From the NCBI GenBank assembly GCA_002189035.1, contig CM007992.1:1550001-1614000 (forward strand): DNA of 64,000 nt. Direction: 5' to 3'. Of the stretch, positions 11,340 to 39,940 are shown piece after piece (position 1 is the stretch's first letter; the number at the start of each line of letters is the position of its first letter). This DNA is from Utricularia gibba. Its lineage: Eukaryota; Streptophyta; Magnoliopsida; Lamiales; Lentibulariaceae. Both the position numbers and the translations under genes were made by a program. Below the pieces are notes generated by a model that saw only the letters and a program-made list of their open reading frames with translations, was not told where the DNA came from and searched no databases.

Positions 11340-12340
11340 ACCAATGGATAGTTTCAATAGAGGTGGGCAAGAATATGGATCAATTCGTTGACTCGGCGAG
11401 TTGATTGGTGACTCGTACTCATGCGAAAATAAGTATGAGTCGCTAAATTAGCTTATTTTTTAATAAAAAAATATTTTAGATTAATGTAATGATTCATTAA
11501 TTTTTTTATCAAGTCTAATTATTATACCCAAGTTCTAACCAACAAAAGATAGTACCGTGACTTTGACACTAATTTTTCAAATCTCAAATCTAGGATTTAA
11601 AAAAGTTTTGATTTTATCATTTTCTTCATGTTTGCAATAGTATTTTTAAACTGATTTCTTCTGCCATTTTATTGTTTTTCACTACTTGTGACTTTTTATC
11701 TTAATTCTTTGCATTTTTATTTATGTATAATTTTTGTAGATGGTTGAATCCTTGAACCCTTCTGTCCCACAGTTACATGATTAAAGCATTGATGTTATGC
11801 CATAGAAATGGAGGATGAATGTATTAGCGATGCCGAATGAGCTTCTTCAATCTAGAACAAGGGCAAATCATCTTTGCTAGATTGACATGATCATTTCATG
11901 TATGACATGAACATATATTCTGCATAAGTATGTTTTGTGAATAATTTTTCTTTTTTTACATCAAGTATTTTAATTTGATTAATTGATTTTAATTCTGTTG
12001 CTTGCTGTACATAAATCGAGTCAAGGATCAACTTGTGACGGGTTGGACTCGACAAGTCCAATTACTCACCTTTGACTCATCTAACTTGACCTGAACTCGT
12101 ACGAGTTGGACCCATGCCCACCTCTAATTTTCAATCAAGGGGTTACTCTCACTAGTGGATTCCATGAACAATGGCACCAACCATGAGTGGGGTGATATCT
12201 TTGTATGCCAACATTTAAATTGAAATGAGGGCTGGCATGGAGATTACGTGAAGATTGATGACGACAATCCGTTGATTTATGTTGTGCTTTTATATGGGCT
12301 AAACCTGAGTACATACAAGACAACACTTCAAGTATTGAAT
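11340..12340 (+). pseudogene. GDSL-type esterase/lipase relic split by a hAT element
   Basis: The pieces at 11340-11357 and 12127-12340 correspond to one exon segment also present at about 20170-20260 and, inverted, at about 30710-30840. The shared stretch reads 'gatagtttcaa..ggggttactctcactagtggatt' then 'ggggtgatatctttgtatgccaacatttaaatt'. In the right arm it reads as GDSL-lipase-like sequence ('SFNQGLLSLVDS'). Here it is frameshifted and interrupted by a 769-bp hAT insertion. Only a small part of the gene is visible. Confidence 0.6.
11358..12126. mobile_element. Non-autonomous hAT element
   Basis: Perfect 12-bp terminal inverted repeats (TAGAGGTGGGCA at 11358; TGCCCACCTCTA ending at 12126) and an 8-bp target duplication matching at 7 of 8 positions (AGTTTCAA at 11350-11357, ATTTTCAA at 12127-12134) mark it. 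Subterminal DNA has repeated GACTC/GAGTC motifs. There is no transposase. The paralogous GDSL segment elsewhere lacks this insert, which confirms it independently. Confidence 0.92.
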
Positions 12341-14419: not shown

Positions 14420-14640
14420 ATGTAGAGTCATCCTCATTATTCTATCGTGCCTCCTACGCTTGAAGAAAGCTGGTTAATTCATCCAACGGCATATCATCCA
14501 AATCCTTTGCTTCCTCTATTACCACAAAGTTATATTTGTGATCCAAGGATCGTACAACTTTTCAACTAATCTTACATCTGTTAGCTATTCTCCAAAGCAT
14601 TTCATCTAATTTCTTGCCATGAACATGAATCACATACTTT
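14420..14640 (-). pseudogene. Copia gag (UBN2-type) relic
   Basis: Read on the minus strand, the DNA gives a block like the conserved gag segment of plant copia elements: 'EKLLRSLDHKYNFVV' followed by 'IEEAKDLDDMPLDEL' and 'TSFLQAYE', with frameshifts. No LTR or pol is adjacent. It is a small orphan fragment partly overlapped by the inverted repeat at 14545-14820. Confidence 0.65.
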
Positions 14641-14820
14641 GCGATTCCCTCACCAAAATTCTGATGAAGAGATTCAAACTCACCACGTAAAGTTTGTAAT
14701 CGAACTTTCTTAACTTTATCAACCCCTTGAACACAAGGCCAATGTACTATAGAAATTAGATGAAATGCTTTGGAGAAAAGCTAACAGATGTAAGATTAGT
14801 TGAAAAGTTGTACGATCCTT
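14545..14820. repeat. Close inverted repeat made of gag relic sequence
   Basis: 14545-14613 and 14751-14820 are near-identical reverse complements of about 70 bp, separated by 137 bp. The repeated unit contains 'ggatcgtacaacttttcaac' and 'ccaaagcatttcatctaat'. A transcript through it could fold into a long hairpin. Both arms derive from the copia gag fragment. Confidence 0.85.
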
Positions 14821-15811
14821 GTAGAAAGCTATTTGACCATGCCACTCAAACTTCATTATATAAAAATTCGATACAATCATAATTAAATTCTTTTGTTTCA
14901 TAAATTGTTCATGCAATCAGTTATTTGTTTTTTTTACTAATTTAAAATAAATTTAAATCTTTTACACTTATGCTTCTCATGATACCATCCGAATTTATAT
15001 TTTAATCCTAGAATATTTTTAAATGTATGAATTAGAGATTATGAATTGTATTTACATGCAAGAAATTGATGTAAACACAATTATTTGCCTCCTTAATTTT
15101 TTATATTATCCTACCCGATAATTATACACGTGTCCTAATAAAAAGTTAGCCTGATGTTTTTTAGAAATCCTCTTCTAGTGCAAAACACCCAAGTTTCCTT
15201 GTTGATGACTATAGATTATTCGTTCGCTGGCTGATTATTACCTTCTCCTTTCCTCGGCAAACGCAAAGAACCTAACCTAACCGAGAAGTGCGTTGCTAAA
15301 ACGAAGGATCTATTGGCATGGCTGATCTAAAAATCACCAGAAGTGCGTGCGTTTCTGGTTATGTTTTTGTATGTGTGTGTGTGTGTGTTAATTGGCGCAT
15401 TTCTTGGGGCGTTTTTATGGGGTGTGAGTTGGAAACGAGGGAATGGGCGGGCGACAGTGTAGAGAAGGGAAATGAGTGAAAACCTATGTGGTGTGTATGG
15501 CTATGCTTGCTTATTGATTAGGACTGGATTATCATAATGTGGCACTCCTTGTCACCTGGACCCCCCAGAATCTAACTTGGTTTTCACACATTATATATAT
15601 ACCTTGTGTGGATTAATCAACTTTATGAAGAAGTGAAATCATCTTGGAACAACAGCAGATCATCTCAGGTCATCATTATTTATGGACACATGGAAAAACA
15701 TGACAAAGAAGGGATAGTTCCAACAATCTAGCAATAAACAACATAGAACAATAGAACAAGACGGCTTTATTTAAGTTTCGTGAAAATTACTAGTTCATGG
15801 GATGGTCTTCA

Positions 15812-18332
15812 CTAGTTCATGAAGACAGATCTTTTCATGCTCCACGAACTCAGCTTTTGGATTCTCACTGATTCAGTACCGTTGTTGAAAACGTACAAGT
15901 GTGACTCTTCAAAAATTGCTAAGGTTGGATACACACGAGATGTTATCACAGTCTTTCCTCCAGATGCAAAGCTCTCCACAACTGAGTGATCAATCTATTG
16001 AAGATAATGACAAATGCACCATCAAAAAAAGATGAAATAATGATAATAGATTTGCACCAAAAAATGAGATGACATTGTACCAAGCTCCTAAGGGAAAGAC
16101 TCTTGTACTTCAAGTCCACATTTACAAATCCTCCGAAAGATGGTCGATATGCATCGCTTCCTCCATCCATTTGTGATTTTCCACTCACCAATGTGGATCT
16201 AGAAGCATTAAACAATGAGACCTACAAAATAATTGACATATAATATATAATTCAAGGATTAATAGATGTTGAGAGTACCTTGTAGCATCTGAACATAATA
16301 GAACTAAATATTGATTTTGATCCTTGAAAATCCTGAAGAATACTGGAGTGTATTCTTCCAGTTTCTCAGAAGCTAGAGTAATAAGACCAAATGGTCCTAA
16401 TGTTCCTTGAACACTTGAGTCTCTCTCCCCACAAATCTTTTGTGGATCATGTATATCCCATCTTGGATCCAGAGGTTCAGCCTTGTCCAAATTATCAAAA
16501 GTAAAGGTGACATCAACATCAACTTGGGCGGGAGTGATGCCATGAATCTCAATTTGTTGTCCACTATGAAGATCTTTGTTGTTCAATTCCACCTTGTTTT
16601 TCCTTAGTGTTTCCACTTCCTTAATAGGCCATTGAATAAGTTGTCTCCCATTCGGATCCAGAACCAATGTTCGAGGAATCAACTGAAAAAAAAAAAAAAT
16701 CAATTAGCATATGAATTTAAATACAAAAGAACTAGTTAATTAGGTACCTGTATACCGGCCCATCCCTTCTTAACATCATTTTCAGTAGTATCTGATTCAT
16801 TTGCCCATCCCCACAAAATTCTTCGTTGCTTGCTAAGATCATAAAAAGATTTTGAAGCATAAAAGTTTCCATAATCATACCTCAATCCATGCCACCCATC
16901 AATCAAATCCTCATCTGGAATATATTTATCCAAATCACGATGATATGTCCCAATGGTGTAATACTCATACCTCGTAACATCAAGACTTACCTTCATCACA
17001 TGCTTCACATTTTCCCCAAAAGCTGAAGTATCAAGTCCATTTCTTGTGGTAACAGAAACAGGGAAGAAATCTGGGCACTCAAAATTGCCGGTTCCAGACA
17101 CAGAATGCAATGGATGCTTCGCCTTGATCCATTGCTTGAAGTCTTTGCTCCGGTAAAGGAACGTCATTCCCCTATGCTTACGCCGACCACCAATGACAAT
17201 TCTCCAGTGGCCATCATGACCGAACCATGCTGTAGTTGGATCACGAAAAGCGGTCTTGTTGATGGATTCATCCGACACGATCAATGGATTATCATTGGGC
17301 TTTATCCATTCTCGAAGATAAGGATCTGAAAGATTAGCTGGAACAGCATAGTTTTGCACCTGAGTATTGTTTTCATCAACAATCCCAGTATAAAGAATGA
17401 CCGGCTTATTTCCAGGGAGAACAGTTGCAGAGCCGGACCAACAGCCATAATTATCAAATGACTTTGATGGATAAATGGCTGGTTCAAGTTTGATCCAGTT
17501 GATCAAGTCTTTCGAAACTGAATGAGCCCAGACGATGTTACCCCAAACCGCTCCTTTTGGATTGTATTGGTAGAAGAGATGATAAAATCCGTTGTAATAC
17601 ATTGGACCTGTTATTATTTAAAAAATGATCAAACTATTGAATAAACTGGAAAATATGCCAAAAGGTTAAAAGGAACGAACACTCACCATTGGGATCTGAT
17701 TTTGTTTCCATTTTCCCAGGATCGTCATGTGGAGAAACAAAAGCATGAGCCCATTAGTTCATAAACCAAACTTCCATCAACAAAAAAGTAAAATAGCAGA
17801 ATGAAAGAACACATGGGGTACGGTTTTAAGACACAACTGGAAAAGGGGAAAAATGTTGCCTTTTAGGGAGGAAAGGAGGAAATGGTATCAGAATCCAAAA
17901 AAAAAAAAAAAAAAAAATGCATGCATGCAATGAAATTGCCAAGTCATTGCTTATTCGGACTGGTTCAGAATAAAATAAAAATGGCGTGTGTTTAATAGGG
18001 GGAAGGATGCCTCATTAATGCGGAGTGATGCCCTCGTGTGTGGTGTGTTCAGATTCTGGATAAGAATTGAGGTTTTCCAAAACAACAATATCTTCACAAA
18101 ACTCATGCAGAAAGCGAAGCTAAAACATGAATTTGGTACCGTTAATCCAATGTCTTGAGGGTTGAAAATGGTATGCTGTCCGGTGCTCCTGCTTCACATT
18201 AGCGGCTACGACAGATTGCAGATTGGTGAATACATTGTGTGCCCCATGGACGCCATCTACGCTGAGCATCGCCAAAAAACACAGGGCCAAAACAAGGAAA
18301 TCCCATCTCCTACCAGAAACTAGAAGCGCCAT
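15812..18332 (-). CDS. Cell-wall-type beta-fructofuranosidase (acid invertase), left copy
   Basis: This is a GH32 enzyme that hydrolyses sucrose to glucose and fructose, probably secreted to the cell wall. Six exons on the minus strand: 18140-18332, 17687-17695 (the classic 9-bp mini-exon encoding DPN), 16748-17607, 16279-16682, 16081-16198 and 15812-15994. Phases agree and give 588 residues. Seen: a hydrophobic N-terminal signal sequence (about residues 10-30), WINDPNG at 62-68 (nucleophile Asp65), FRDP at 188-191, and ECPD at 244-247 with Glu244 as the likely acid/base. Pro in ECPD is the cell-wall rather than the vacuolar form. The residue before ECPD is Phe where Trp is usual. The D-x-x-R after 'SL' (Asp277) keeps the Asp associated with sucrose use. 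The gene appears intact. It is a near-twin of 33260-35781. A fructan exohydrolase role cannot be excluded by sequence alone. Confidence 0.93.
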
Positions 18333-18405
18333 GAGTGGGAGGACGAATAAACCAGAAGCTAACCAGAAGAATAAGGCTGAGTTTGGATGCTGTGAATCTG
18401 AAGAG

Positions 18406-18413
18406 TATTTATA
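18406..18413 (-). promoter_or_regulatory. TATA box of the left invertase gene
   Basis: TATAAATA on the minus strand, 74 bp upstream of the start codon, implies a short 5' leader. It lies just inside the edge of the near-identical tract (18419), so the core promoter is shared with the right copy while DNA further upstream differs. Confidence 0.7.
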
Positions 18414-18589
18414 AGGGAAGAAGAGAGAGGGGCTTTGGGTTTGAAAAGAGGGTAGAATCTGTTAAGAGTCAAATGAATAAATTTGCTGTTAGCGGAAATC
18501 TCTCGTTCATTTGAATGAGTAAGGCATCTTTATCTTGACTTATGAATCAGCAAATATTAACTTATTAGAAGATATGTCAGTTAATAAGG

Positions 18590-19700
18590 TTAAAAATGGG
18601 GAAACTCCTGTTTCATCTCAACAACTTGGAGGAATTTTTGTTGGTCTTTAACTAACGCTACAGATTTAAGGGGCCCTTTGGCTTTGGCAACCGAATGAGA
18701 TCCTTCGGATGGTCTCATCTTGGCGAATCCTTCGTCTGGCCTGACCCAGTTACCTGAAGGCTGGGCAGTCGCTGAACCAGTTACCACCAAAAAAGAGTTG
18801 GTCAATAAAACTAATATCATTTTTTTCGCCCTTGATTTGTGCCTGTGTTTGTTTGTTTCTTTTTTTTGTTTTTTTTTTTGAGCACGTGTTGATCGCCACC
18901 GTCATGTCCTGAGACAATTTGGTGATGGCAAATTCAACCAGGCGACACGGCCGCGATGCACGTCCCTGGAAAAACAAGGTACGACTGATGATGATGATGA
19001 TGATGATGAGTCGCTCACTGAAACCGATCCAGAACTGTGGTACAGCTTCCAGTGCAATTTGAAGGTCGAATACTACACCCATTGAAAACGTCGATTGAGT
19101 AGGCTGGATGGATTCCAGCACGCCATCAATTGCCAGAATCATGTTCTCTGCACATGTCGCTGATTTGGTTCTACCATCCATCATCTATAGCACAAGGTTA
19201 AGGACTCTTTAGAACCCCAGTTGCCAAATTTTCAGCTCTGTGAAGCGTCTTCCTCCTGCAATCAATCCCTTGCAATGCATCCCACAGCCCGCCCACCCTT
19301 GTATTTTCAGCTCTGTGAAGCGTCTTCCTCTCTGCATTGTGGATGAGCCCCCGTAGGAAGGGCGCTGCATTAGTTGGGTAGTTGGTGTAGGCGTCCCCAA
19401 GGAAAAGAGACGGTCACCGTGTCATTATCTGCATTTAGTTTTGGAGTTCCGATGCATTTACTGCAACATCTCGCCCTCTCATTCACGAGGCTGACTCTCG
19501 CATACCAAGAAGACACCGCAGGCGCCCGGAGATATCTCATCCCCCATGGGACTTCACTAGGCCGGGAACAGCGCCCTCGTAGTGTACCCTTGTTCGTTCC
19601 CGTTAATGTAATATTGTAGCTTGATCTCTAGGGTATCAGGATCAGCTGGATCCTGGATTCGGGTCATCCAGACCCGACTCGGCTGACTGTGGCAGTTAGC
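18590..19700 (-). pseudogene. Unidentified coding-like block, left arm copy
   Basis: GC-richer islands (18900-19180 and 19210-19640) stand out from their AT-rich neighbours. Their mirror images lie in the right arm at about 31420-32860. Shared phrases include 'gaactgtggtacagcttcca', 'gtgatggcaaattc' and 'ggagttccgatgcatttactg'. Frames such as 'NADNDTVTVS', 'AENMILAIDGVLES' and 'HNAERKTLHRAE' look protein-like but are broken by stops and shifts. A (TGA)n microsatellite at 18986-19009 interrupts it. I do not recognise the family. Its place between the GDSL relic and the invertase is the same in both arms. Confidence 0.45.
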
Positions 19701-19779
19701 ACCATGTGTGTGGAATATTGTCCAAGCTTACTTTGGCAGTTTGTTTATTCTTCCATTCAATTCCGGTGATAAGCGGAAT

Positions 19780-20390
19780 TCATGCCATCAATTCTTCACA
19801 TGTGCATGTTTGGGGCTTCCGGGGCCGCTTGCTTCCTTCAATCCTGCTACAACCGGATCATCTCGAATCCTCGCTCGACAAAACCGGTCGGCACCATGTA
19901 AGAATCTGACAGTTTGCTTACTAACCGAAAAGATGTAATCAGCTCCTTTGTGCGAAGAGGAAAGGCATTCTCTGTGCCGGCCACCGGTGAGCTTAGAGGC
20001 AACTCTAAGCCAACTGGGGAAAACGATGAACGGAGAAAATCTCGCGGCGTCTGTGTCGAACGCCATCTTGGTTCTTGTTTCCGGCGGCAAGGACTACATC
20101 AACAAGTTCTACATCGCCCATCGCCGGCGACGGTCCCCTGGGCTGCATCTATAATCAGTTGGTCTCGTGGCAGGAGTCTACTAAGGGATAGTTTCAACCA
20201 GGGGTGATATTTTTGTACGCCAACATTTAAATTGCGATGGGCGAGGTGCTGAACAATCCGGCGAGATAAGGGTTCTCGGTGGTTGACAGAGCGTACTGTG
20301 GGTTGGGGCAGAACCAGGCGCCGAGGGCGTACGCCGGAACGCCTTCAGAGTCTCACCCATGAATGTGCAGCAGCAGCTGGGTGTTATCAA
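19780..20390 (+). pseudogene. GDSL-type esterase/lipase relic, left arm
   Basis: Broken frames give successive landmarks of plant GDSL esterases: 'FNPATTG', 'ATLSQLGKTMNGENLA', 'SNAILVLVSGGKDYINKFY', 'GPLGCIYNQLVSW', 'SFNQG', 'VLNNPARYGFSVVDRACCGLG'. Introns, frameshifts and stops are mixed. The N-terminal FGDS block is not seen here. The same relic appears inverted at about 30570-31215, and a small piece lies at 12127-12340. Non-functional. Confidence 0.75.
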
Positions 20391-20497
20391 GTTCAAGCTT
20401 CCGTGAGTGTAACTGCGATTAAATCCGAAAATTTTGGATTGACGAAACATGTTTTTATGCCAACCACATTTTTCATCTCAGCGCGGGAAAAACGAAG

Positions 20498-20534
20498 TTA
20501 TTTAATTTTAGGACATAGGTAAAACTTGGGGTCT
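20498..20534 (-). pseudogene. 3' tail copy of the PTD gene
   Basis: The minus strand reads DPKFYLCPKIK then a stop, matching the last residues of PTD ([11 protein letters not shown], stop at 30443-30445). It is followed by the same 3' flank. Homology begins at the 'agacccc' shared by 20534 and 30409. This short piece fixes the inner edge of the palindrome and shows that the junction fell within the last PTD exon. Confidence 0.9.
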
Positions 20535-21177
20535 ATCAACAATATATAATTACATATATGATCTAAAAATTATGAATTTAGAATATAACGGATATTTAAA
20601 CTTTCATAATGAGGCATAACGGTCCTATAAAGTTTTGTGAATGGGTATATTTGACCCATAAGTTTGATGAATTGATATATTTGATTTTCGGATTTTTTTT
20701 ACTGTAGAACACATCTATTTAATAATGATAGATTTAATCCGATAAAATTTCGATTTTAACATATTTGACCTACATAAGTGAACCCGGTTCAATAATAATA
20801 AAATTTTATTAATATATATTTAATTATTAATATCTATTTAATTATTAAAATATTTAAAAAAATTTACTTCCGATATTTGACCCTAAATCGAATTGGGGAT
20901 GACCCTATTCTTCATCTACAGGTAAAGGTGAACTACCGAGAGATCGAGAGAAGTGATTCCCACACAAGAGAAAGGTGTGAAGTTGCTCTCGATTATCATT
21001 CTCTTAAGGTATGGCTTTCGTGATTTTTTTCGCTTCATTGCATTATTGCATTTGCTTCTTATTCGCCTGGTTGCTATTGTTGAAATTTTATGCAAAAATC
21101 AGTTGGTTTGTGAATGATAGTTTTCCTCGTAGTGTTCACTACACCCTTATCATATTGTGCAATCTTGGAGAAATATC
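20535..21177. other. Loop DNA left of the copia element, no gene seen
   Basis: AT-rich sequence with no match in the right arm. The segment 20930-21010 is slightly more balanced in base composition, but no exon can be argued. 21173-21177 (ATATC) is the left target site of the copia element. Confidence 0.6.
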
Positions 21178-21478
21178 TGTTAGAGATCAGCCTCAATCCA
21201 AAACTTGAAGGTGATTGGAAACACTAATCTTGTGTTATAAAGTCATGTTTCAGTTAAAAAGTGTTGGATTTGATTTGTTGGGCTTTTTGTGTGTTTTTAA
21301 TTATTGTGGCCCACTATTGGATAATCTAAGTATTGGTTATATATAAACCCTACTAGGAACACGTGTGAATTAGGTTTTTGGTCATTTTTATTGTTCATGA
21401 GTCGTTTTTTATCCAAGGCGATCTTATATGAATTATTCATTTGTTCCTTCCAAAAACTCTATCTTTCTTGCATCATCA
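21178..21478 (+). repeat. 5' LTR of the copia element
   Basis: Begins TGTTAGAGATCAG and ends GCATCATCA. A TATATAAA promoter motif lies near 21340. It is followed directly by TGATATCGGAGC, a degenerate form of the usual initiator-Met tRNA primer site TGGTATCAGAGC. Confidence 0.9.
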
Positions 21479-21490
21479 TGATATCGGAGC
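21479..21490 (+). other. Primer-binding site of the copia element
   Basis: TGATATCGGAGC directly abuts the 5' LTR. It differs from the plant copia consensus TGGTATCAGAGC at two positions. Confidence 0.75.
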
Positions 21491-23371
21491 AGTAAAGTTC
21501 TCAAACCTATGTTCATTTCAGTATTTTATTTACCGTTCAGCCTTTTTCACTTAGTGGTTTGCCAAGTATCAACGCGAAGCTTGTCAAACGGTGGCTATGA
21601 TGGCATCTGGTAGGGGGCCTCCGATATTTGATGGTTTTGAGTATGGAAGTTGGGTCAAAAAGATGCATAGGTACCTTCGAGTCAAAAAGATTTGGGATAT
21701 TGTTGAAAGGGAGATACTAGCTATTACACTAACAAGCAAATCTACATCAGAACAGAAAGAGGAAGCTAAGTATCTTCAATAGAGAAAAGATGAAACAATG
21801 GATACCTTATATCAAGCCATTTCTGAATATCTGTTAGATGATATTGTAGAGTGTCAATCAACGAAAGAAATATAGAATACTCTCAAATCCCATTATGATG
21901 GTGATGTCATATTTAGAGAGATAATACGCAAAAACAAGATGGAGGACTTTGAGAGGAACAAATTGTTAGACAATGAAACTATACAAGTCTATTATGAAAG
22001 TACTACGGAGCTTGTGAAGGAGATTCGAGGATTGGGGGAAAAACTTGAGGATAAAAAGGTGATTAGCACGGTAATTATGAGCCTACCTGCAAGATTCGAG
22101 CCAAAGTTATGTGCACTTGAGACAGAAAGAAAAATCTTTGACATTATTGAAGGAAGGCTTCATCAGTTGTATCCTGAATATCTTCTTACACCAGAGCCAA
22201 TATTTAGAGAGTTCATGATTGAGTAGTAATCTACATAAAAGAGATTGGAACTAAGAGATGGTTGTGAGCTTGAGAAAACTTATGGTGAAGCTGCTCTCCT
22301 CACCAAAATGCAGAATATGAATATAAACTCAGGTGCAACTAACAATGTCAAGGATGTCAAGTCAATAGTCATCAAACAATCACCAACGTCAATCCCAACT
22401 TCAACCATGGGTAATCAGAAGTGCAGACATTGTGATAAATCTAACCACAAGAGTGAAGATTATTGGACTTTAAGCACAAATACTTGCAAGCATGGCAATC
22501 AACAGAAACACAAGAGTGAGTTTTGTTGGTAGAAGTCTTATGCTTTGTGCACGAAATGCAATCAAAGAGGCCATCTTGACAACGTCAAATCCAATCAAAA
22601 TTGATCATAACAAGAAGACTACTTCCAAGGATGAAAAATCATATGCATACTTTACCTACTTTGAAGACGAGTCAGAGATATCTTTTGAAGATTCTTGTGA
22701 TTATGAGTGTGCTCTAATAACATTAATCTCAGATGCTAAAGGGTGGTACTTGGATTTTGGCACCTCCTATTATGTATGTTGTGATACAAGATCATTTCTC
22801 TAACTTGAAAAAATTGGGAAGGAGGTAAGCACGTGCAGTGGTGAAAATATTCGCATTGTGGGAAAAGGAAGTATTTTACTCATGCTAAAAGAAAGAATTG
22901 TTCAAGTTGATGATGTTTATTATTCACCAAACCTCAAACAGAACCTATTGAGGTTTGGCCAATTGAGCAGGCAAGGTTTTGACATTGAGCTAATGAAGGA
23001 TGCTGATGGTATAACCACTAAAGTTAAACTTGCTGATCCAAAAACGAAGATTGAATTCCATGTTGTGTTGACCAACTATAACTTCTACCAAATCATGGTT
23101 AGTGATCATAAAATTTGTATTTTCTCACTTCAGGATCAAAGCAACCTTTGGCATAAACGTTTTGAGCACTATAGCTTTAACAATATGAAAATATTGCAGA
23201 AGAATAAGGAAGTACTGGAATTGAAAAATATCAAGTTTGCTGATACCAAATGTGAAGTGTGCCATCAAGGTAAACAGTGTAGAAAACCATTTCATTCGAG
23301 TGATTTAGTAGCAAAGGAGAAATTAGAACTTATGCATACAAATTTTTGTGGACTATTTAAGAAATGTTCAT

Positions 23372-23386
23372 GGGGGGGGGGGGGGG
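23372..23386 (+). repeat. Run of 15 G in the copia integrase region
   Basis: The homopolymer falls just after the HHCC domain, where the integrase core should begin, and disturbs the frame. Run length in an assembly is unreliable, so the exact number may be a sequencing artefact. Confidence 0.8.
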
Positions 23387-26226
23387 AGGGGAGAGTAGAT
23401 ATTTTGTTACATTCATTGATGATCATTAACACTATTGTTGGGTTTACTTTCTTAAAAACAAATCAAAAGTTCCTCATATCTTTCGAAAATTCAAAATGAT
23501 GACTTATAATCAGAGTGGATGCTCCTTAAAGATGATTAGGTCAGACAATGGAGGTGAAAATGAGGGAATCATTCATCAATTCACAATATCATATTCTCCA
23601 CAATAGAGTGGTATATGTGAAAGGAGAAACAAAGCAATTCTTGATATGTCAAGATGCCTATTGTTTAAGAAAGATCTTCCTGTAAATTTCTGGGCTAAAT
23701 CAATATCTACATTTGTATATCTTTTAAACTTGCTTCCTTCTAGGGTAATTAGTGAAAAAACCGCCCATGAAAAATGATATGATTATATTAAAAAAGTTGA
23801 TCATTTCAGAATCTTTGGTAGTTTGTGTTTTACTCATGTACCAGACCAAAAACAAGGAAAACTTGATAAGAAATCTGTATGTGATGTATTTGTTGGTTAT
23901 AGCAACACTACCAAAGGATATAAAGTTTATATACCTGACCAGAAGAAATTCATCTTTAGTCATGATATCTCTTTTGATGAAAGTGCAAAGTACACTTTGA
24001 TTAAAGATTACATTTCTGTAAATGATGCAGAAGCTCATAAAAATCTTGGAGGGCATAACACTCACGTGAAATTTGACCTTTGGATACACATACCTCAAAA
24101 CATCTCTTCCAGGGACTCAACAAACCAAGAAACTAAAGATGGAATTAAAAATATACAGGTGAATGAGAACTCAAAATCAACTTTGGAACTCTTCCATGAA
24201 GATTCAAATCAAGTAAATGATCAATATTCAGATGAGAATTTCCCACCTCCAAAAGAGGAGAAGGTTGCAAATGAAGACGACTCATCTGATGAGAATTCAA
24301 AATCAATCTTAGAACCCTTATATGAACAATCACATTAGGCCAATGATCAATATTCAGATGGGAATTTTGAAGTCCTAGAAGAGTAGCAAGGCACGAATGC
24401 AGAAGACTTATCAATAGATGAATCTGATGGAGAGGAACCTGATACTAATGATGAAGATTATTACCCATCTGATCGTGATTGGCAAGGAAACGAAAAAAAG
24501 ATCAGAGATTCAATAGATAATGAAGATAGTCATGTTACTGAAATAAGACGAAGCAAAAGAAACAAGACTCCTACAATAAGTTTCTCCAAGTTGAATGATG
24601 ATGTTCAAGATGTTGTAGCTGATATTTTGGCTGGATTATTGACAGGAGATCCAACATCATTTGAAGTGGCTGTACAAAATCCAAAATGGGGAGATGCCAT
24701 GGAGGAGGAAATGAATTCTACACTTAAAATGAAACATGGGAGTTAGTTGATAAACCCAAGGATAGGAGTTTCAAACCTATTGGTCTCAAGTGGTTATTCA
24801 AAACCAACATGAATACGGATGGTTTTGTTAACAAATATAAGGTTAGATTAGTAGCCAAGAGATATAGTCAGATCAAAGGAATAAATTTTCATGAGATTTT
24901 TGCACCAGTAGCAAGATTTGATATGATTAAAGTAATTCTTGCCATTTCAGCTGCTCATGGATAGAAAGTGCATCATATGGATGTGAAGACTGCGTTTTTG
25001 AATGGTGTGTTGGAGGAGGTTGTTTATGTTGAACAATCAAAGGGCTTTGAAGTGTCAGGTCATGAAGGCAAAGTATTGAAGCTAAATAAATCTATCTATG
25101 GGTTGAAGAAAGCTCTTAGAACATGGAATGAATGCATGGATAACTTTCTCCAGGGTATTGGTTTCAGAAAAACATATAGTGATTGCTCACTATATGTTAA
25201 AGAAAAGGGAGATGATCGTTTATTTGTTAGCCTATGTGTGGATGATCTTATGATTATCTTAGGTGATGAAAGGAAGATTAAAGAATTCAAAGCTCTACTC
25301 AAAAATGAATTCAAGATGACTGACTTTGGAATGATGTCCTACAATCTTGGCATAGAAATTCATCAACTTGCAAATGTTAGAACATTCATATCTCAGAAGA
25401 AGTACTGTAATTAACTTCTTGAAAGGTTTGGGTTCAAAGATGTCAATCCTTCAAAAACCCTCTTGGATTACAAACAAGTGATTGGAGAAAACAACTAGGG
25501 AAGGAATGTGGATGCTACTACTTATAGAAGTATGGTTGGAAGCCTCATATATCTCTAGCATACAAGGCCTGATTTGTGTTTTTGTGTAAATGTCTTATCT
25601 CACTTCCTCAACAAACCAACAACAACTCACATGATAGCTGTTAAAAGAGCTTTTAGATATATAAAATCTACTAATAATTTCGGATTGTTCTATCCCTATG
25701 AAGGTGAAAAACCAGTCTTGAAACTTAGAGCCTACTCATATAGTGATTATGGTATGGCTAAAGATAGCAAGAGTATATCTGGTGCATACTTCTTCTTAAA
25801 TAAGAACCCTATAATTTGGTTTTCGAAGAAACAAAAGGTGGTAACACAGTCAACAGCTGAAGCATAATACATCTCAGCAGCACATGCTTTGAACTATTAT
25901 GTTTGGTTGAGACAGATGTTAAACGAACTTGGATTCATACAAAAGGAAGCTACATATCTGCTTTTGGATAATCGAGCTGCAATCTCCATTGCCAAGGATC
26001 CAGCAAACTTCAACAAAGCCAAACACATAAGAATAAGGTATCATGTCATAAGGAATTACATCAAGGAAAAGAAGATCAAAGTGCAGTATGTTGAGAGTGG
26101 TAATCAGCTTGCTGATGGGCTTACCAAAGGTTTGAATAGAATTCAATTTGAGCTAACAAGGAAGAACATGAATCTCATGACTATGGAAGACTTTCTCAAG
26201 TTGGGAGATCTCGATCTAGAGGGGAG

Positions 26227-26525
26227 TGTTAGAGATCAGCCTCAATCTAAAACTTGAAGGTGATTGAAATCACTAATCTTGTGTCATAAAGTCATGTTTC
26301 AGTTAAAAGTGTTGGATTTGAATTGTTGGGCTTTTGTGTGTTTTTAATGATTGTGGTCCACTATTGGATAACTTAGGTATTAGGTATATATAAACCCTAC
26401 TAGGAACACGTGTGAATTAGGTTTTTGGTCATTCTTATTGTTCATGAGTCTTTTTTCATCTAATGCGATCTTATAAGAATTATCTTTTTGTTCTTTTCCA
26501 AGACTCTATCTTTCTTGCATTAACA
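26227..26525 (+). repeat. 3' LTR of the copia element
   Basis: Begins TGTTAGAGATCAG and ends GCATTAACA. It is preceded by the purine-rich tract AGAGGGGAG (26218-26226), the expected plus-strand primer. It aligns with the 5' LTR over its length with substitutions and a few 1-bp indels. Confidence 0.9.
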
Positions 26526-28941
26526 ATACCAATGATGTATCATCGTCTTGGATTCGATCCATAATATGTTAACTCATATAACAAGTAACCTTTGAAAGTA
26601 AGTAGTGTGTTTTAATATCTTGTGTTATATTGTTTTTTATTATTAATCTGTATTAATCTTTTTGTTATGCATGATTTATAGATTAGTGGACTCTATTTTT
26701 AAAGTTAATGGTTGGGATGATGATTGTGTGAAGTAGCTTGAGTTGCCTATTTTTTGGCCAGAGGTTAGTATGACTTTGTTGATATTATTTTTTTTTCTTT
26801 ATTTTAACGTTGATCAACATATAGGTCCCTAAGCAAAAGGGTACAATTGAATGTGAGATTTATGTGTTATACAATATGTATCTCTTCCTCCAACAAGCTC
26901 ACGACCTTTACACTATTGAAACACACCCTTTGTTTGTTAGTAATTTTCAAAATTTGTTGGTTATTTATTAGTCGTTACTAAATACTATTATATTTCTATA
27001 GATGGTACAAGATTGGTTCGTTAAAGAAGATGTTCGTGAATTTGCAGAATTAATGGAGATTCCTCATCGATCTAGGAGCGGCCGAGTAAGCAAACCTTTC
27101 AAAAAAATGTAGACATTGAACTTGTTTGTTGATATGAGCTTGTAGACTTTGTTATTTGTCTTTGACACTATTTATACATTATGTTTGATTCTTTAAATTT
27201 TTAAACAAACATTATACGGACAATCATAATATGCTTATGATTTCTCTAATTATAAATACATCTAATAACATTATACGGACAATCTATTTATTTGAATACT
27301 TATTATTATCATTCTAATTACATCTAATAAAAAATATATACAAGTATGTAGAAGGGCATAGAAAATACCATATAGGACCCATGCCCCTATAGAGGATGAC
27401 ACACGGGCATGGAGGGTGGCATACGGGTGTGGGCTACGCATATGGAGGGTGGCATACGGGCGTGGGTTATAGCAACCCACGTCTGTGTGTCATGCCGTGT
27501 GGAGTTTCCTAAATTGTATTATTGGATAATAGATGGACTTTTTTTTCCTAAACGATTTTGACAACTTAAAATGTATTGTTTGTAATTTCAAAATCAAAGA
27601 ATTATACTATTTATACTAATTAAAACTTAAATTATACTATTTATAAATTTTTATGTCGCATGTTAATAAGGTAAACAAAAAACAGAAAATAGAAGTTATA
27701 ATAATGACTTCCCAATCAAAACAACTTGATTGATATTAATAAAAATTACGTACAACCAAATATTAATATATTATAAAATTATTAAAATAGAAATAAAAGC
27801 AACATTAAAAAAGTGAAATTGCTGCCTAGCTTGATGACAGTTTCTACCAATTAGGAGGGTATGTGATTGAATAGATCAATCTATATTTGAATTTGATAAA
27901 ACATAATCCTCCTTTTCTTCACCTCAAATGAGACTTGTCAACACTATTAAATTTTGAAATGAAAACGAATTGTTCATGCATTGTGCGGGATGCTTTTTAC
28001 CCTCCCCACAGCGATGAGTATGTGGTCAATCTTGATTAAGCACCAATAATAAATCAATAGTGGATCTCATGCCCTCATTTCTACAAATTATTTGGTGTAA
28101 AATTGTTAACTTTGAAAAGTATATTATCTAAATTCATATAACTAGTTGGTTTAAAAAAGATCCTCAAAATAGGATTAAAAATGGTTTTATTAATCCACTT
28201 GTATCTATTTTATACATACAAATCAAATGCGCCTTGAGGGCTTAATTTTTTATAAAAAATGAATGATAAAATCAAATGGTGGGAAGAATCAACGACATAC
28301 CAATGCAGGATGGTGTATCAAACTATTCAATATTGCCGACTTATCACCCCTGGAAAAAGCCCAAGTGAAATGGAGGAGTATTTCTATTCAGAGGCAGCAA
28401 ATGACCCGTTAGCACATAAGCTTCTTAACGATTTTCCTCAAGTATTATCAAGGCCATATAAAGGGTCTATCACCAGCAGTCAGTGTTCGGAGCAAAAATA
28501 AAAGTTATTTTATTTAAAGTCATTCAATCTATTTTTAATTTAGTTATATGTTTAAATTAACTAAGTATTTTAACTCCGGTTAAACACATATAAAACACTA
28601 CATCCATAAATCACGGGCTTGTCGTCGATATTCACATAATCTCCATGCCTCTGTCATTTGTCGCCGAGAGGTTCTCAACCGCACTCCACATTTTCAGAAC
28701 ACTTTGAGACCCAGTCGTCGGGATTCATTACCGATAACGGGATAGGTTCTTGCTGCTGCTGGATCTGTTGGTTGGATCGTGTCATTTGGTAAGATTTTAT
28801 TGCAGAATATTAGAGGCTTGATGTCGTTGCACTAGGCAAGACTGTGAGTATGAACCTTTGCTGCCGTTATATGGTTTTCTGATGTTCCCGTCTCTGTTTC
28901 TAAAGATCAAAATCAGCGTCGGTTGCCGCTCGACTGAGAGA
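26526..28941. other. Loop DNA between copia and PTD; PTD upstream region
   Basis: 26526-28590 has no gene I can support; small frames at 27003-27110 and 28259-28501 are unrecognised. A short tandem repeat lies at 27409-27467. From about 28600 base composition rises and the DNA probably holds the PTD promoter and 5' leader, but I see no clear TATA box. Confidence 0.5.
27409..27467 (+). repeat. Short imperfect tandem repeat
   Basis: The unit 'atggagggtggcatacggg' followed by Y-gtggg occurs at 27409-27433 and 27442-27467. A more degenerate copy precedes it ('agaggatgacacacgggcat'). Confidence 0.75.
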
Positions 28942-30445
28942 ATGAACGTTGCGCAAGAGTCTAGAGAATCTACGCCGTCGAATATTTCCAATTCAGGTAA
29001 ATCGGCTGAACGAAACCAGTTTCTCGGTAGGCTTGCGTGGTGTTCGATTTGTTTGTTGTTCCGATCAGTTATCAGATGCTTTTATTGAACTTAGGCATCT
29101 AGGTTTCTATTTGCTTGTTCGATTACGGTGCTAAGATAGATATCTGCGTGGCTGAGATCTGTGATGTCTTGTTCCGTAATTCACATGCATGAATAGACAA
29201 AGAGGCTTCATGCGAATATGTTTGATGAATTTGCGTGTGTATACATTGAAACAAGAGTTAAGTCTGGGCTGGAAACCGAGTAGTTATACCGGTTGATGCT
29301 ATTCAAAGGTCGTTTAGTATTTGAATCTTACATCCGTTGCAGGATTCTCTGGTGTCTGTATCATGAGCACCTCGTGGAAGGAAGCCCAACATTCATCTTT
29401 TATCAAGTTTATCTCTGCTTTTCTCGGCGCGAATTCTTACAGATTGAAATTCATGCCAATAGCTCCAGTTCTTTCTTTCCCCTCCTTCTTCTATTTAAAT
29501 TTGTAATATCAGTGCCTTATAGTATCTATCTGCAGGACTTCATTTTCAATTGTGGCGGGCTTTCTGTGGCCTTCGTGTTTGTCACTACTTGGAACTCTAC
29601 GGAAACTGCCTCCATCTTCAGCAGGTAACCGATGATCACTGTTTAAACTCCTTTCGCTTTCTTATCCACTTAGTTGAGCCTATGCAGAATCCAGAAATTG
29701 ACTGGACAATTTGCTCATTTGTACGTCGTTGTGACGCTGCCTTCGAAGGATCAAAATGAGAGTTTTGTGCACGCTTATTTCAAGTAAGTAGTTAAACTGA
29801 AAGTAAATCCTTCTGTTTCCTTCTGTGGTGTGGAGTTGAATTGAACGTATCCTCGTTCAAGATATGGGTTCGAGCTTGGCAAGCCATCTTTCATTCCTGT
29901 GCTAGACCTGGAAATGGGGTTCGAGAAGATTGTCAAAATAGCACATGCACGTGGAGGTACAATTAAGCATTTCATCTCTAACGGAATCTTACCTAAAACT
30001 TGATTGTCATTTCTAACTACCAACTCCATGACAGTCTGCAAGAAGCAAGATGCTATAGCCAAATTGAGAGCTGAGGTGCGTTTCAGTAATCACGGTACGT
30101 TTTACTGGTTTCTGGCTGCTGAATTACTTGCGAATATATGATTTTAGAGGACGACTTCGGTGCAATCCATGGAAATATACAAGAAAGTGGTGACATCAAT
30201 TCCAGGGATTGACAGCCATGACGCCAATACAGTATGTAAACCACTCTTACTTTTTCACGTCTCATTTTCACCAATCTCATATTCATTCCTTGCAGCTACA
30301 GCAAGCCATTGGCTCCATAGAAGCAGTTGCAAAAGCGTCCAAGAACCACATATTAGATAACACTGATCTCTCAGCGGAAAAAGCAGAAACCATTACCAGG
30401 TTCTTCAGAGACCCCAAGTTTTACCTCGGTCCTAAAATTAAATAA
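28942..30445 (+). CDS. PTD: PARTING DANCERS homologue, ERCC1-like meiotic crossover protein
   Basis: PTD is a nuclear protein related to ERCC1 that works with the XPF-like SHOC1 in forming class I meiotic crossovers. I built eight exons: 28942-28996, 29343-29467, 29536-29624, 29688-29783, 29862-29956, 30035-30075, 30148-30231 and 30296-30445. All have GT-AG borders and compatible phases and give 244 residues. Diagnostic blocks as I recall the family: [61 protein letters not shown], then a C-terminal helix-hairpin-helix region with 'SIPGID' and '[10 protein letters not shown]', ending [14 protein letters not shown]. No stops or shifts were seen, so it is likely functional. It sits in the loop between two inverted invertase genes, and its last 37 bp are duplicated at 20498-20534. 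The first exon start is the least certain part. Confidence 0.9.
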
Positions 30446-30569
30446 CTTTCGTTCCTCCCGCGCTGAGATGAAAAATGTGGTTGACGTAAGAACATGTTTC
30501 ATCAATCCAAAATTTTCGGATTTGATCGCAGTTACACTCACGGAAGCTTGAACTTGATAACAACCAGCT

Positions 30570-31215
30570 GCTGCTGCACATTCATGGGTGAGACTCCGAA
30601 GGCGTTCCGGCTTACGCCCTCTGCGCTAAGATAAGAACATGTTTCATCAATCCACAGCACGCTCTGTCAACACCGAGAACCCGTATCTTGCCAGATTGTT
30701 CAGCACCTCGCCCATGGCAATTTAAATGTTGGCGTACAAAAATATCACCCCACTCACGGGTGTTGCCGTTGACCGTCGAATCCACTAGTGAGAGTAACCC
30801 CTGGTTGAAACTATCCCCCTTAGCTGACTCCTGCCGCGAGACCAACTGGTTATGGATGCAGCCTAGGGGACCGACGCCGGCGATGTAGAACTTGCTGAGG
30901 CTATCTGACGGGGTGTAACGTGTGAGAAGAAGATTGCAGGATAGACGTTGAGGAGGAGGTAGTTGTTAATTTAGTCCTTGCTGCCGGGCCCGGAGACGAG
31001 ATCCAAGATGGTGTTCGACACATACTCCACGGGATTTGCTCCGTTCATCATTTCCCCGAGTTGGCTAGAGTTGCCTCTATATGCGCCGCTGGCCGAGCAC
31101 AGAGAATGCCTTTCCTCTCTACGTACAAGGGTGCTGATTACATCATTTTCGGTTAGCCAGTAAAGTGTCAGATTCTTACATGCTGCCGACCGGTTTTGTC
31201 GAGGATGCCTCCTGT
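30570..31215 (-). pseudogene. GDSL-type esterase/lipase relic, right arm
   Basis: The minus strand gives 'YRGNSSQLGEMMNGANPVEYVSN' in part, 'TILDLVSG', 'SFNQGLLSLVDST', 'GDIFV' and 'GVDRACCGL'. These are landmarks of GDSL esterases, but in broken frames with stops. It mirrors 19780-20390, and some residues are better kept in one copy than in the other, which suggests independent decay. It is convergent with PTD and overlaps that gene's 3' flank. Confidence 0.75.
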
Positions 31216-32860
31216 GGCGGAACTCCACCGAGGAGTTCTTATCTCACGGGAATGGAATGGAAGAATAAACAAACGTAAGTGCCAAAGTAACCGACGAAGG
31301 CGCTGCAGTGGCCAATCTCGGACATAACCTTTGACAATTTTTCGGTGCTAACTGCTTCCGTGGACCAGAGTCGGGTCTCGAAAGACCCGAATCCAGGATC
31401 CAACTATTCCGATACCTAGAGATCAAGCTACTGGATTAAATAAACGGGAACAAACAAGGGTAGCTCAAGATACACTACTAGGGCGCTGCTCCCTGCGTAG
31501 TCAAGTCCCATGGGAGATGTATAGCCCAGATTTGTAAATTACCAAAAAAATAAGTTGTTTTTTGCATTTTACCCTACCTTATGATTTTTTCGTTTTTGAA
31601 TGTTTTTTTTTTTTTTGGATTTATAATTTAGGGGTTCAATTTTAAAGTTTAATATTTAGTATTTATAACTTAAGAATATTATATATTAAGTTTTCATAAT
31701 TTTATGATTAATTTTTGTGATTATTTAGAGTTTAGGGTTTAAGATTTCACAATTTTTTAAAATTACTGATTTAGGGTTTAAGATTTTAATTGGGATTTAA
31801 TTTTTTTGGTTTCAGATTTAAATTTTAGAGTTTAAGGTTTAAATTTTAGAACTTGATATTTAGTTTTGTGATTTAAGATTTAAGGGTTTAAGATTTCGAA
31901 TTTAAATTTTAGATTTGAAGTTAGATTTTAGGTTTTAGACTATGAAATTTTTAAATTTCAGATTTCGTATTATGATTTAAGTAAAGATTAAGTTTTATAT
32001 ATTTTTATTTTTATGATTTAATTTATAACTTAAATCTTACTATAAAGTATTTTACAAATGGTAGACAAACATAAGGTAATTATCAAAGAAAATTTACAAG
32101 TAGGGTAAAATGCAAATATAATGCAATTCACAAACGTAAAACGTGGAGGCAGCTCCGGGCGCCGGCGGTGTCTTGGTATGCGAGAATTAGCCTCGTGAAT
32201 GAGAGGGTGAGATGTTGCAGTAAATGCATCGGAACTCCAAAACTAAATGCAGATAATGACACGGTGACCGTCTGCCTACACTAGCTACCTAACTTATGCA
32301 GCGCCCTTCCCACGGGGGCTCAAGCTCATGCACAATGCAGAGAGGAAGAGGCTTCACAGAGCTGAAAAATTGGCAACTGGTTTCCTAGAAGTCCTTAACC
32401 TTAGTGGCAATTGAAAACTTAGAAACTGGGGTTCTAAAAAGTCCTCAAAATTCAGCTATAGATGATGGATGATAGAACCAAATCAGCGACATACGCAGAG
32501 AACATTATACGGGCAATCCACGTTTTAGGGAGCTATCACTTCTCTTTCAATGGAGTATAGTATTCGACCTCGAAATTGCGCTGGAAGATGTACCACAGTT
32601 CCGGTTCGGTTTCAGATCATCGGCTGCTGGTTCCCAGCCTCCAGGGGCGTGCATCGCGGGCGTGTCACCTGGTTGACCCAAGCCTTCTTGAATTTCCAAT
32701 CGCCAGATTGTCTCCGGTGGCTATCAGCATGTGCTCAAAAAAATGGAAACAAATACACACGTGCAAATAGGAAAATATGGGATTTTGATATGCCCGAAAA
32801 AAATAAAATGATATTTGACTAACACCTGGTAACAAACTCGCTAAGCTACTGCCCAAACTT
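31216..32860 (+). pseudogene. Unidentified coding-like block, right arm copy, with insert
   Basis: 31260-31520 and 32150-32860 mirror the left arm block at 18590-19700. The left arm continues smoothly where this arm is split by about 630 bp of AT-rich DNA. Read on the plus strand, pieces such as 'NAERKRLHRAEKLATGFLEV' are protein-like but not continuous. No family recognised. Confidence 0.4.
31561..32116. mobile_element. AT-rich MITE-like insert with 17-bp inverted ends
   Basis: TTTGCATTTTACCCTAC (31561-31577) and GTAGGGTAAAATGCAAA (32100-32116) are perfect inverted repeats. Between them runs a degenerate array of 'ttagggtttaagattt'-like phrases. The left arm lacks the whole block, so it inserted after the arms formed. 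The true element ends may lie slightly outside these repeats, and I could not find a clean target duplication. Confidence 0.65.
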
Positions 32861-33178
32861 CAGGTAGCTGGGTCAGGCAAGACGTAAGACCAAGATGAGA
32901 TCACCCGAAAAAGTATCTCATTTTGGTTACGAAGGGGCGATAAAATCTCTATCATTAGTTAAACATCAAAACTAAAATTCTAATCTCATATTTAATCTTT
33001 TAATTGATACATTTCTAGTAATTTAATATTTACTGATTCATCCACGGGATCTGATCCAAATCAAAATAAAGATACATATTTTTTATTACTTATTCAAATA
33101 AACACGTTTGTTGATAGATTTCCTTAACAACAAATTTAACTGTTAATCCCCTCTAAACCCAAGATTTCTTTATTCCCT

Positions 33179-33186
33179 TATAAATA
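33179..33186 (+). promoter_or_regulatory. TATA box of the right invertase gene
   Basis: TATAAATA, 74 bp before the start codon, identical in position to the left copy. Upstream of 33173 the two promoters diverge sharply, so the genes may be expressed differently. Confidence 0.7.
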
Positions 33187-33259
33187 CTCTTCAGATTCAC
33201 AGCATCCAAACTCAGCCTTATTCTTCTGGTTAGCTTCTGGTTTATTCGTCCTCCCACTC

Positions 33260-35781
33260 ATGGCGCTTCTAGTTTCTGGTAGGAGATGGGATTTCCTTGT
33301 TTTGGCCCTGTGTTTTTTGGCGATGCTCAGCGTAGATGGCGTCCATGGGGCACACAATGTATTCACCAATCTGCAATCTGTCGTAGCCGCTAATGTGAAG
33401 CAGGAGCACCGGACAGCATACCATTTTCAACCCTCAAGACATTGGATTAACGGTACCAAATTCATGTTTTAGCTTCGCTTTCTGCATGAGTTTTGTGAAG
33501 ATATTGTTGTTTTGGAAAACCTCAATTCTTATCCAGAATCTGAACACACCACACACGAGGGCATCACTCCGCATTAATGAGGCATCCTTCCCCCTATTAA
33601 ACACACGCCATTTTTATTTTATTCTGAACCAGTCCGAATAAGCAATGACTTGGCAATTTCATTGCATGCATGCATTTTTTTTTTTTTTTTTTTTGGATTC
33701 TGATACCATTTCCTCCTTTCCTCCCTAAAAGGCAACATTTTTCCCCTTTTCCAGTTGTGTCTTAAAACCGTACCCCATGTGTTCTTTCATTCTGCTATTT
33801 TACTTTTTTGTTGATGGAAGTTTGGTTTATGAACTAATGGGCTCATGCTTTTGTTTCTCCACATGACGATCCTGGGAAAATGGAAACAAAATCAGATCCC
33901 AATGGTGAGTGTTCGTTCCTTTTAACCTTTTGGCATATTTTCCAGTTTATTCAATAGTTTGATCATTTTTTAAATAATAACAGGTCCAATGTATTACAAC
34001 GGATTTTATCATCTCTTCTACCAATACAATCCAAAAGGAGCGGTTTGGGGTAACATCGTCTGGGCTCATTCAGTTTCGAAAGACTTGATCAACTGGATCA
34101 AACTTGAACCAGCCATTTATCCATCAAAGTCATTTGATAATTATGGCTGTTGGTCCGGCTCTGCAACTGTTCTCCCTGGAAATAAGCCGGTCATTCTTTA
34201 TACTGGGATTGTTGATGAAAACAATACTCAGGTGCAAAACTATGCTGTTCCAGCTAATCTTTCAGATCCTTATCTTCGAGAATGGATAAAGCCCAATGAT
34301 AATCCATTGATCGTGTCGGATGAATCCATCAACAAGACCGCTTTTCGTGATCCAACTACAGCATGGTTCGGTCATGATGGCCACTGGAGAATTGTCATTG
34401 GTGGTCGGCGTAAGCATAGGGGAATGACGTTCCTTTACCGGAGCAAAGACTTCAAGCAATGGATCAAGGCGAAGCATCCATTGCATTCTGTGTCTGGAAC
34501 CGGCAATTTTGAGTGCCCAGATTTCTTCCCTGTTTCTGTTACCACAAGAAATGGACTTGATACTTCAGCTTTTGGGGAAAATGTGAAGCATGTGATGAAG
34601 GTAAGTCTTGATGTTACGAGGTATGAGTATTACACCATTGGGACATATCATCGTGATTTGGATAAATATATTCCAGATGAGGATTTGATTGATGGGTGGC
34701 ATGGATTGAGGTATGATTATGGAAACTTTTATGCTTCAAAATCTTTTTATGATCTTAGCAAGCAACGAAGAATTTTGTGGGGATGGGCAAATGAATCAGA
34801 TACTACTGAAAATGATGTTAAGAAGGGATGGGCCGGTATACAGGTACCTAATTAACTAGTTCTTTTGTATTTAAATTCATATGCTAATTGATTTTTTTTT
34901 TTTTTCAGTTGATTCCTCGAACATTGGTTCTGGATCCGAATGGGAGACAACTTATTCAATGGCCTATTAAGGAAGTGGAAACACTAAGGAAAAACAAGGT
35001 GGAATTGAACAACAAAGATCTTCATAGTGGACAACAAATTGAGATTCATGGCATCACTCCCGCCCAAGTTGATGTTGATGTCACCTTTACTTTTGATAAT
35101 TTGGACAAGGCTGAACCTCTGGATCCAAGATGGGATATACATGATCCACAAAAGATTTGTGGGGAGAGAGACTCAAGTGTTCAAGGAACATTAGGACCAT
35201 TTGGTCTTATTACTCTAGCTTCTGAGAAACTGGAAGAATACACTCCAGTGTTCTTCAGGATTTTCAAGGATCAAAATCAATATTTAGTTCACTTATGTTC
35301 AGATGCTTCAAGGTACTCTTAACATCTATTAATATTTGAAATATACATTACATGTCAATTATTTCGTAGGTCTTATTGTTTAACGTTTGTAGATCCACAT
35401 TGTTGAGTGGAAAATCACAAATGGATGGAGGAAGTGATGCATATCGACCATCTTTCGGAGGATTTGTGAATGTGGACTTGAAGGACAAGAGTCTTTCCCT
35501 TAGGAGCTTGGTAAAATGCCATCTCATCTCTTTGCCACAAATCCATTATCATTATTTCATTTTTTTGATGGTGCATTTGTCATTATTTTAAACAGATTGA
35601 TCACTCCGTCGTGGAGAGCTTTGCATCCGGAGGAAAGACTGTGATAACATCTCGTGTGTATCCAAGCCTAGCAATTTTTGAAGAGGCACACTTGTATGTT
35701 TTCAATAATGGTACTGTACCAGTGAGAATCCAGAAGCTGAGTTCGTGGAGCATGAAAAGGCCTGTCTACATGAACCAGTGA
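33260..35781 (+). CDS. Cell-wall-type beta-fructofuranosidase (acid invertase), right copy
   Basis: A GH32 sucrose-cleaving enzyme, predicted secreted. Exons: 33260-33452, 33896-33904 (9-bp mini-exon), 33984-34843, 34909-35312, 35393-35510 and 35596-35781. Phases agree and give 589 residues. Exons 1-3 encode the same protein as the left copy, including signal sequence, WINDPNG, FRDP, ECPD and D-x-x-R. Differences begin near the end of exon 4 (for example LVHLC against LVLLC) and grow in exons 5 and 6, where this copy ends in Gln after MN. The exon 5 acceptor was set at 35392 because an earlier AG (35370) shifts the frame. No inactivating change seen. Its promoter beyond the TATA box differs from the left copy. 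Confidence 0.93.
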
Positions 35782-36560
35782 AGATATCTCATGTACAAAA
35801 CCTGGATTTTGCTGCTGCTGCTTTTTGGTGAATTCTTTTATTTCTAGTAGCTTGTCAATAATTTTCATGAAACGTAAATAAGTTCATCTGGTTTGATTGT
35901 TCTACGTTTTTTATTGTTAGATTTTTGGGACTATCCATTCTTTCTGATGTTTTTCGATGTTCCATAAAAAATGATAACCTAAGATGATCCGCACCTTCTG
36001 TTGTTGTTCCAAGATGATTTCATTTCTTCATAAAGTTCCTTAATCTTACCAAGGTATAACATCTTATAACCAAGTTCAGATTCTGGGGGAACTAACTGCC
36101 CAGGTAACAAGGAATGCCACATTGTGGTGCTACAACTGAGACATATTCAATAACTACCTTTAATCCAGTCCTAATTAGCATCCATCCACTCAAATATATT
36201 TGTTTATAAACGGAGACAAGTTTTGAATTGTTGACTATCCATCATTCCTTGTTTCTTCATTAAAAGTAAGTATGTACCCATTTCGTACTCACCAACAACC
36301 CATGAAAAAAAAAAATAGCACCTTATATTGGCTTCCAATATTTGTTTTTTTTTTCATAATTTTTCTTAGATGATGTTACATTGAAAAGAAGCGAATAATT
36401 AATATTTGGCCATTTGATTCATCCTCTCCAAAAATACAATTCACAACCAATGGAGGACAATGAGCGACACTTAACAGCAATTTATGAAGTCCTTTGCGTG
36501 GGTATTTACATCACGTGGATGGCTTGTGATGAATTTTGCTGGAGCTCTACCATTATAAAC

Positions 36561-38212: not shown

Positions 38213-38443
38213 TTAATTGGATTGGTTTTTACTTCGTTGGGCACTTGTCATAATCAATGCCGGAGGGGTAGTAATTGGATCTCGAAATTGAGTGGGTGAA
38301 ATGGCTGGTGGTTTGTTCCCTTTATCAACTGCTGAGTCGCCAAACACGAACACTGCCGTCGCCTGAGGTAGCGCACGACAGACTTCTCCGACGGCGACGG
38401 CAGGAATATCCATTGGTACAAGAAGTAACAACGTGCTGGCCAT
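38213..38443 (-). pseudogene. GDSL-type esterase/lipase exon-1 fragment
   Basis: The minus strand encodes a hydrophobic start, then ATAVFVFGDSAVDKGN, the GDS catalytic-serine block of plant GDSL esterases. In a shifted frame it continues SNYYPSGIDYDKCPTK. A frameshift and the lack of further exons downstream show that it is a fragment. It may be the missing N-terminal part of the GDSL gene whose later exons lie inverted at 30570-31215, or a separate copy. Confidence 0.75.
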
Positions 38444-38587
38444 CTTCTTTTCAGCGTGAATTTCCTTTTATTTTATTGTCAGAATTGAATATTCAAGAGC
38501 TAAAAGCATCGTTTGAATAATAAAGCGTCGTTGCAAATTTCTTCAATGGATTGACAATATCGGCTTATGGATACAGAGTGATAGGAA

Positions 38588-39811
<1,224 letters not shown>

Positions 39812-39904
39812 TGGAGCAGGAATGTATGAGAAAGAGATGAGGAACTCCACTCCCCTCCGCTCCTTATTTGCGACGGGAGAATTGAGATCCTGTGGATGCC
39901 AGGT

Positions 39905-39940
39905 TGCCACGTCGGACAATCCATCTCGCGACCTCATTGG
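39905..39940 (-). promoter_or_regulatory. G-box-like and CCAAT elements of LHCB5
   Basis: On the minus strand GACGTGGCA (39905-39913) lies about 95 bp upstream of the start codon and CCAAT (39936-39940) about 125 bp upstream. ACGTGGC cores are typical of light-responsive Lhc promoters. Function is inferred from family knowledge. Confidence 0.5.

Follow-up and report, generated by a model that had tools for sequence, protein, structure and literature searches.

The window analysed here is a 64,000-nucleotide stretch of the Utricularia gibba genome (C4:1,550,001-1,614,000); the genome searched comprises 100.09 Mb in 516 contigs, and all results rest on this one assembly. Self-comparison of the window bore out the initial annotation in its description of two mirrored arms around a loop of about 9.9 kb. 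From the outside inward, each arm comprises 3′ flank, invertase, 5′ block and GDSL relic. The loop spans positions 20543-30400 (9,858 bp) and holds a copia element together with most of a homologue of PARTING DANCERS (PTD). The features of this inverted repeat, in window positions, are as follows.

15533-20542, minus strand: left arm of the inverted repeat, from self-BLAST inverted matches to 36126-30401
15790-18460, minus strand: invertase C, intact coding frame of 588 aa in a spliced reading with GT/AG at every intron
16301-18416, minus strand: identity tract in invertase C, from the TATA box to exon 4, by alignment and permutation
19870-20420, plus strand: GDSL-like relic of the left arm, stops in all frames
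20498-20534, minus strand: left-arm relic of the last PTD codons and stop
About 21179-26525, plus strand: copia-type LTR retrotransposon in the loop, with a copia reverse transcriptase
28942-30445, plus strand: PTD homologue (PTD1), eight exons, 244 aa, intact, with an HHH_5 domain
30401-36126, plus strand: right arm of the inverted repeat, its start falling inside the last exon of PTD
30420-31210, minus strand: GDSL-like relic of the right arm, stops in all frames
31520-32153, no strand assigned: repeat insertion of 634 bp in the right arm, absent from the left arm
33170-35796, plus strand: invertase D, intact, 589 aa, proper splice sites
33176-35290, plus strand: identity tract in invertase D
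33260-33452, 33896-33904 (DPN mini-exon), 33984-34843, 34909-35312, 35393-35510 and 35596-35781, plus strand: exons of invertase D

The arms are very unevenly alike: identity is 98.5-100% in the invertases and, for the most part, about 66-80% elsewhere; identity above 98% is limited to approximately 2.1 kb of each arm of some 5-6 kb. The unidentified block that had been noted in both arms is present, with the correction that its right-arm version carries the AT-rich 634-bp insertion, at least nine further copies of which were found at 84-90% identity in a search of the genome. The LTRs of the copia element are 89-91% alike, and its target-site repeat (ATATC/ATACC) matches at four of five positions. 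The GDSL relics are short fragments that gave no Pfam match, and their putative label follows the call of the initial annotation and a motif resemblance. No tRNA and no Rfam match was detected in the window. Other features observed there include a 71-bp inverted repeat (14544-14821; 99% complementary, 136 nt apart), a chlorophyll a/b-binding protein exon (38216-39940, minus strand; Pfam PF00504 at 38591-38875), next to which a possible GDSL 5′ relic occupies 38216-38467, a DUF3475 exon (45629-45952, plus strand; PF11961) and a Thaumatin-family gene (57367-58101, plus strand; PF00314, E 4.6e-82).

Invertase D matches the N and C domains of GH32 and the Arabidopsis cell-wall invertase, and invertase C is near-identical to it. 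The NDPNG, FRDP and ECPDF motifs and the DPN mini-exon are all present, and judged by their sequences the invertases are of the GH32 cell-wall type. The closest solved structure is that of AtcwINV1 (PDB 2ac1, 2xqr; GH32), with a full-length match at E 3.6e-199; in contrast with that enzyme, the copies described here are clustered and have differing upstream regions, and two of the four are pseudogenes. A protein search of the genome placed the other GH32 genes on other contigs.

The gene in the loop is confirmed by sequence comparison as a PTD homologue with a putative meiotic role: it shares 61% identity over 242 aa (E 8e-112) with Arabidopsis PTD (AT1G12790; sequence from PMC9957857), including the HhH C-terminus. 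A point of difference from Arabidopsis PTD is the presence in U. gibba of two intact copies, about 40 kb apart; the protein search detected no PTD outside these two loci. The second copy, two additional invertase copies (A and B) and an invertase fragment belong to a cluster of approximately 71 kb on one contig, of which the inverted repeat of the window forms the right-hand part. Invertases A and B and the second PTD sit 9-33 kb upstream of the window, and the features involved are listed below.

C4:1517228-1518640 and C4:1524150-1525342, plus strand: invertase A, split by an LTR element and frameshifted
C4:1535045-1537552, minus strand: invertase B
C4:1538095-1538493, plus strand: 5′ invertase fragment
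C4:1538956-1540460, plus strand: PTD2, the upstream PTD copy, coding
Window 4365-12317, no strand assigned: inverted duplicate (75-88% identical) of the sequence downstream of invertase B

The cluster thus contains four invertase copies, half of them intact and half broken; a fifth is represented by a 5′ fragment, and PTD is present in two intact copies. The picture of a self-contained palindrome of two invertases accordingly gives way to that of one part of a four-copy cluster of mixed orientation. Invertase A is broken throughout, and its LTR insertion is flanked by a GGTAA target-site repeat. Invertase B is a pseudogene whose damage lies entirely at its 3′ end, where exon 4 has lost 122 bp and two splice sites are disrupted; 5′ of the deletion, the copy is clean and identical to D. 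At two places (window 12129-12317 and C4:1530003-1530360), PTD-upstream sequence is joined directly to the GDSL relic and PTD is absent, a junction that represents either a deletion of PTD or a site that was without it.

Sequence comparison of invertases B, C and D reveals an island of identity. In each copy it starts shortly before the TATA box, and it takes in introns 1-3. B and D show no differences in 1,962 bp, the exact match covering positions 33176-35137 of D, while C differs from D by one SNP and one poly-T change over the tract of about 2.1 kb, and from B by one poly-T difference. In a segment alignment of A-D, C and D are 100% identical in the 5′UTR, exons 1 and 3, and introns 1-3. 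Directly 5′ of the tract, identity between C and D falls to 66-72%, and B bears no relation to either; 3′ of it, C and D are 75-97% identical. On the 3′ side, B and C remain 94-100% identical through exon 6, and the divergence of D from them is about 3-25% per segment. No site of the alignment within the tract separates B, C and D, whereas the next 570 or so columns contain 24 changes unique to D, eight to B and six to C.

In a run-length permutation, the observed runs of agreement for the pairs BC, BD and CD, each longer than the distribution of polymorphic sites predicts, were never reached in 2000 permutations (0/2000). Across the 292 synonymous sites of the tract, dS between C and D is 0, compared with 0.033 beyond the tract. 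Selection on the protein was considered and rejected as the cause of this identity, because the introns are as identical as the exons. The pairs concerned include both orientations, B-C being direct and B-D and C-D inverted. Smaller patches occur elsewhere in the cluster. Invertase A contains a 321-bp exact patch common to B, C and D, and its distal 5′ flank includes a 650-bp patch 92% alike to that of C, the nearer flank being 74-78% alike. A recent sister relationship between A and C across the whole 5′ flank was considered and rejected, since only the distal patch of about 650 bp reaches 92%. PTD1 and PTD2, both intact, differ at 13 codons (dS 0.051, dN 0.011), and within an otherwise 92-97% alignment they share a 723-bp exact stretch (28957-29679), introns included.

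Downstream of the tract (15790-16300 in C; 35290-35781 in D), comparison of C and D gave 18 nonsynonymous and two synonymous counts, and pseudogene B matches most of this 3′ part of C at 94-100%. The counts are small, but the C-terminal portion of invertase C may be under relaxed constraint.

These observations are very probably accounted for by old local duplications followed by recent, patchy interlocus gene conversion among copies in both orientations. A unit of PTD, GDSL and invertase would have been duplicated locally and repeatedly, both inverted and direct, giving rise to the cluster of about 71 kb, which transposon insertions and deletions would later have broken up. The duplications are old, with flanks about 25% diverged. 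The left-arm relic of PTD indicates that the duplicated unit extended into the last exon of that gene, and that the right-arm order PTD-GDSL-invertase is probably older than the left-arm order. Conversion would then have recently overwritten parts of the copies. One tract would account for the identity of B, C and D between the TATA box and exon 4, and smaller ones for the patches shared by the two PTD copies, by A and the other invertases, and by B and C. An identity island that includes introns, has abrupt edges and lies between older flanks is the pattern by which conversion is recognized, and we infer from it the mechanism and the recency of the exchange; with B, C and D identical in the tract, the data fit more than one direction of transfer. 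Such conversion would operate in the direct (B-C) as well as the inverted (B-D, C-D) orientation. The 5′ edge of the tract coincides with the end of B homology, which hints that B took part. If a substitution rate of 7e-9 per site per year is assumed from Arabidopsis, the zero differences in about 2 kb place a rough upper bound near 0.1 million years on the B-D conversion.

Exchange of sequence between the arms, as the initial annotation had proposed, is therefore strongly supported by the identity tracts and the permutation. Its further proposal was that recombination between the arms would flip PTD without breaking the invertase genes; in fact, the sole near-identical substrate is the invertase gene itself, and a crossover would consequently fall inside it and swap the two promoters. 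Inversion of the loop is possible in principle, given that the two near-identical 2.1-kb stretches, inverted and about 15 kb apart, offer a suitable substrate, and arm-to-arm exchange has indeed occurred. That the loop (18.4-33.2 kb) repeatedly inverts by crossover in the identical invertase bodies, so that PTD and both promoters exist in both orientations in the population, nevertheless seems unlikely to us. Exchange without crossover accounts for the data, and B, which is direct to C, has the same tract, such that the identity needs no palindrome geometry. A flank-swap comparison, moreover, revealed no clean swap, the similarity of A to C and D being patchy on both sides. Had inversion happened, the coding sequence would be nearly unchanged and PTD whole, with the invertase promoters exchanged. 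Recombination would find an equally good substrate in the direct pair B-C, where it would delete or duplicate PTD2 instead. A broader version, in which the invertase bodies are hot substrates for recombination, the 15-kb loop inverting and the B-C pair deleting or duplicating PTD2 in populations, we regard as a shade less likely again; were it true, homogenization of the invertases would, as a side effect, shuffle their promoters and make PTD dosage differ among individuals.

An origin of the identity in the assembly, whether by fold-back, by joined haplotypes or by consensus correction that merged reads of paralogues, is highly improbable. Over-correction would yield exact identity of 2 kb in three copies, as seen in this single assembly, but the flanks are 20-34% diverged and unlike in structure, 20 coding positions 3′ of the tract distinguish C from D, and the private 122-bp deletion of B and its 3′ differences survived any read correction. 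The tracts of 2 kb are also far shorter than the long reads probably behind the assembly (U. gibba mean 10.4 kb, PMC5793159). A fold-back, about which the initial annotation had expressed concern, requires arms identical throughout, flanks included, and is excluded by arms only about 66-80% alike outside the invertase genes and by copies with private lesions. Least credible of all is a very recent duplication of the invertase body alone, carried for example by a transposon into three sites. Such an event would fit the sharp 5′ edge that the tract has at the TATA box of B, C and D alike, and the unrelated upstream sequence of B. Yet C and D have in common, in register with the gene, about 2 kb of old homologous sequence on the 5′ side and some on the 3′ side; every copy retains the 3′ end of the gene as an older homologue, 85-97% alike when D is compared with the others; and no transposon ends were seen around the tract. 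We therefore favor old duplication with recent conversion as the history of this locus.

PTD is a ZMM crossover gene that acts in trans. Given this mode of action, and the duplication of PTD itself, a functional link between its crossover role and its position in the loop is not supported; most likely, PTD lies between the invertases by chance and its crossover role is incidental.

The locus invites comparison with the palindromes of Y and W chromosomes, which are likewise inverted duplicates that exchange sequence and are kept near-identical (PMC3403216). A recombining palindrome of the Y type requires arms that are near-identical over most of their length, whereas here only the gene body (about 2.1 of some 5-6 kb) is identical and the arms are otherwise old and diverged; a third copy in direct orientation participates, and the chromosome is not known as sex-limited. 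Among clustered plant paralogues such as resistance genes, conversion has been tied to similarity, clustering and orientation (PMC3924838), the genes concerned here being cell-wall invertases and a ZMM crossover gene instead. Open-access papers that mention both Utricularia and invertase carried neither word in title or abstract.

The idea of loop inversion can now be tested with long reads. The process of conversion is itself already known, and neither this example of it nor the duplication of PTD as a passenger overturns current knowledge; the locus is a real and tidy further example. It would represent a clear natural case of conversion that maintains identity in the transcribed portion of old duplicates as their promoters drift apart, in direct and inverted orientation within one compact plant locus, and it shows that a ZMM gene next to an unstable cluster can be duplicated along with it as a passenger.
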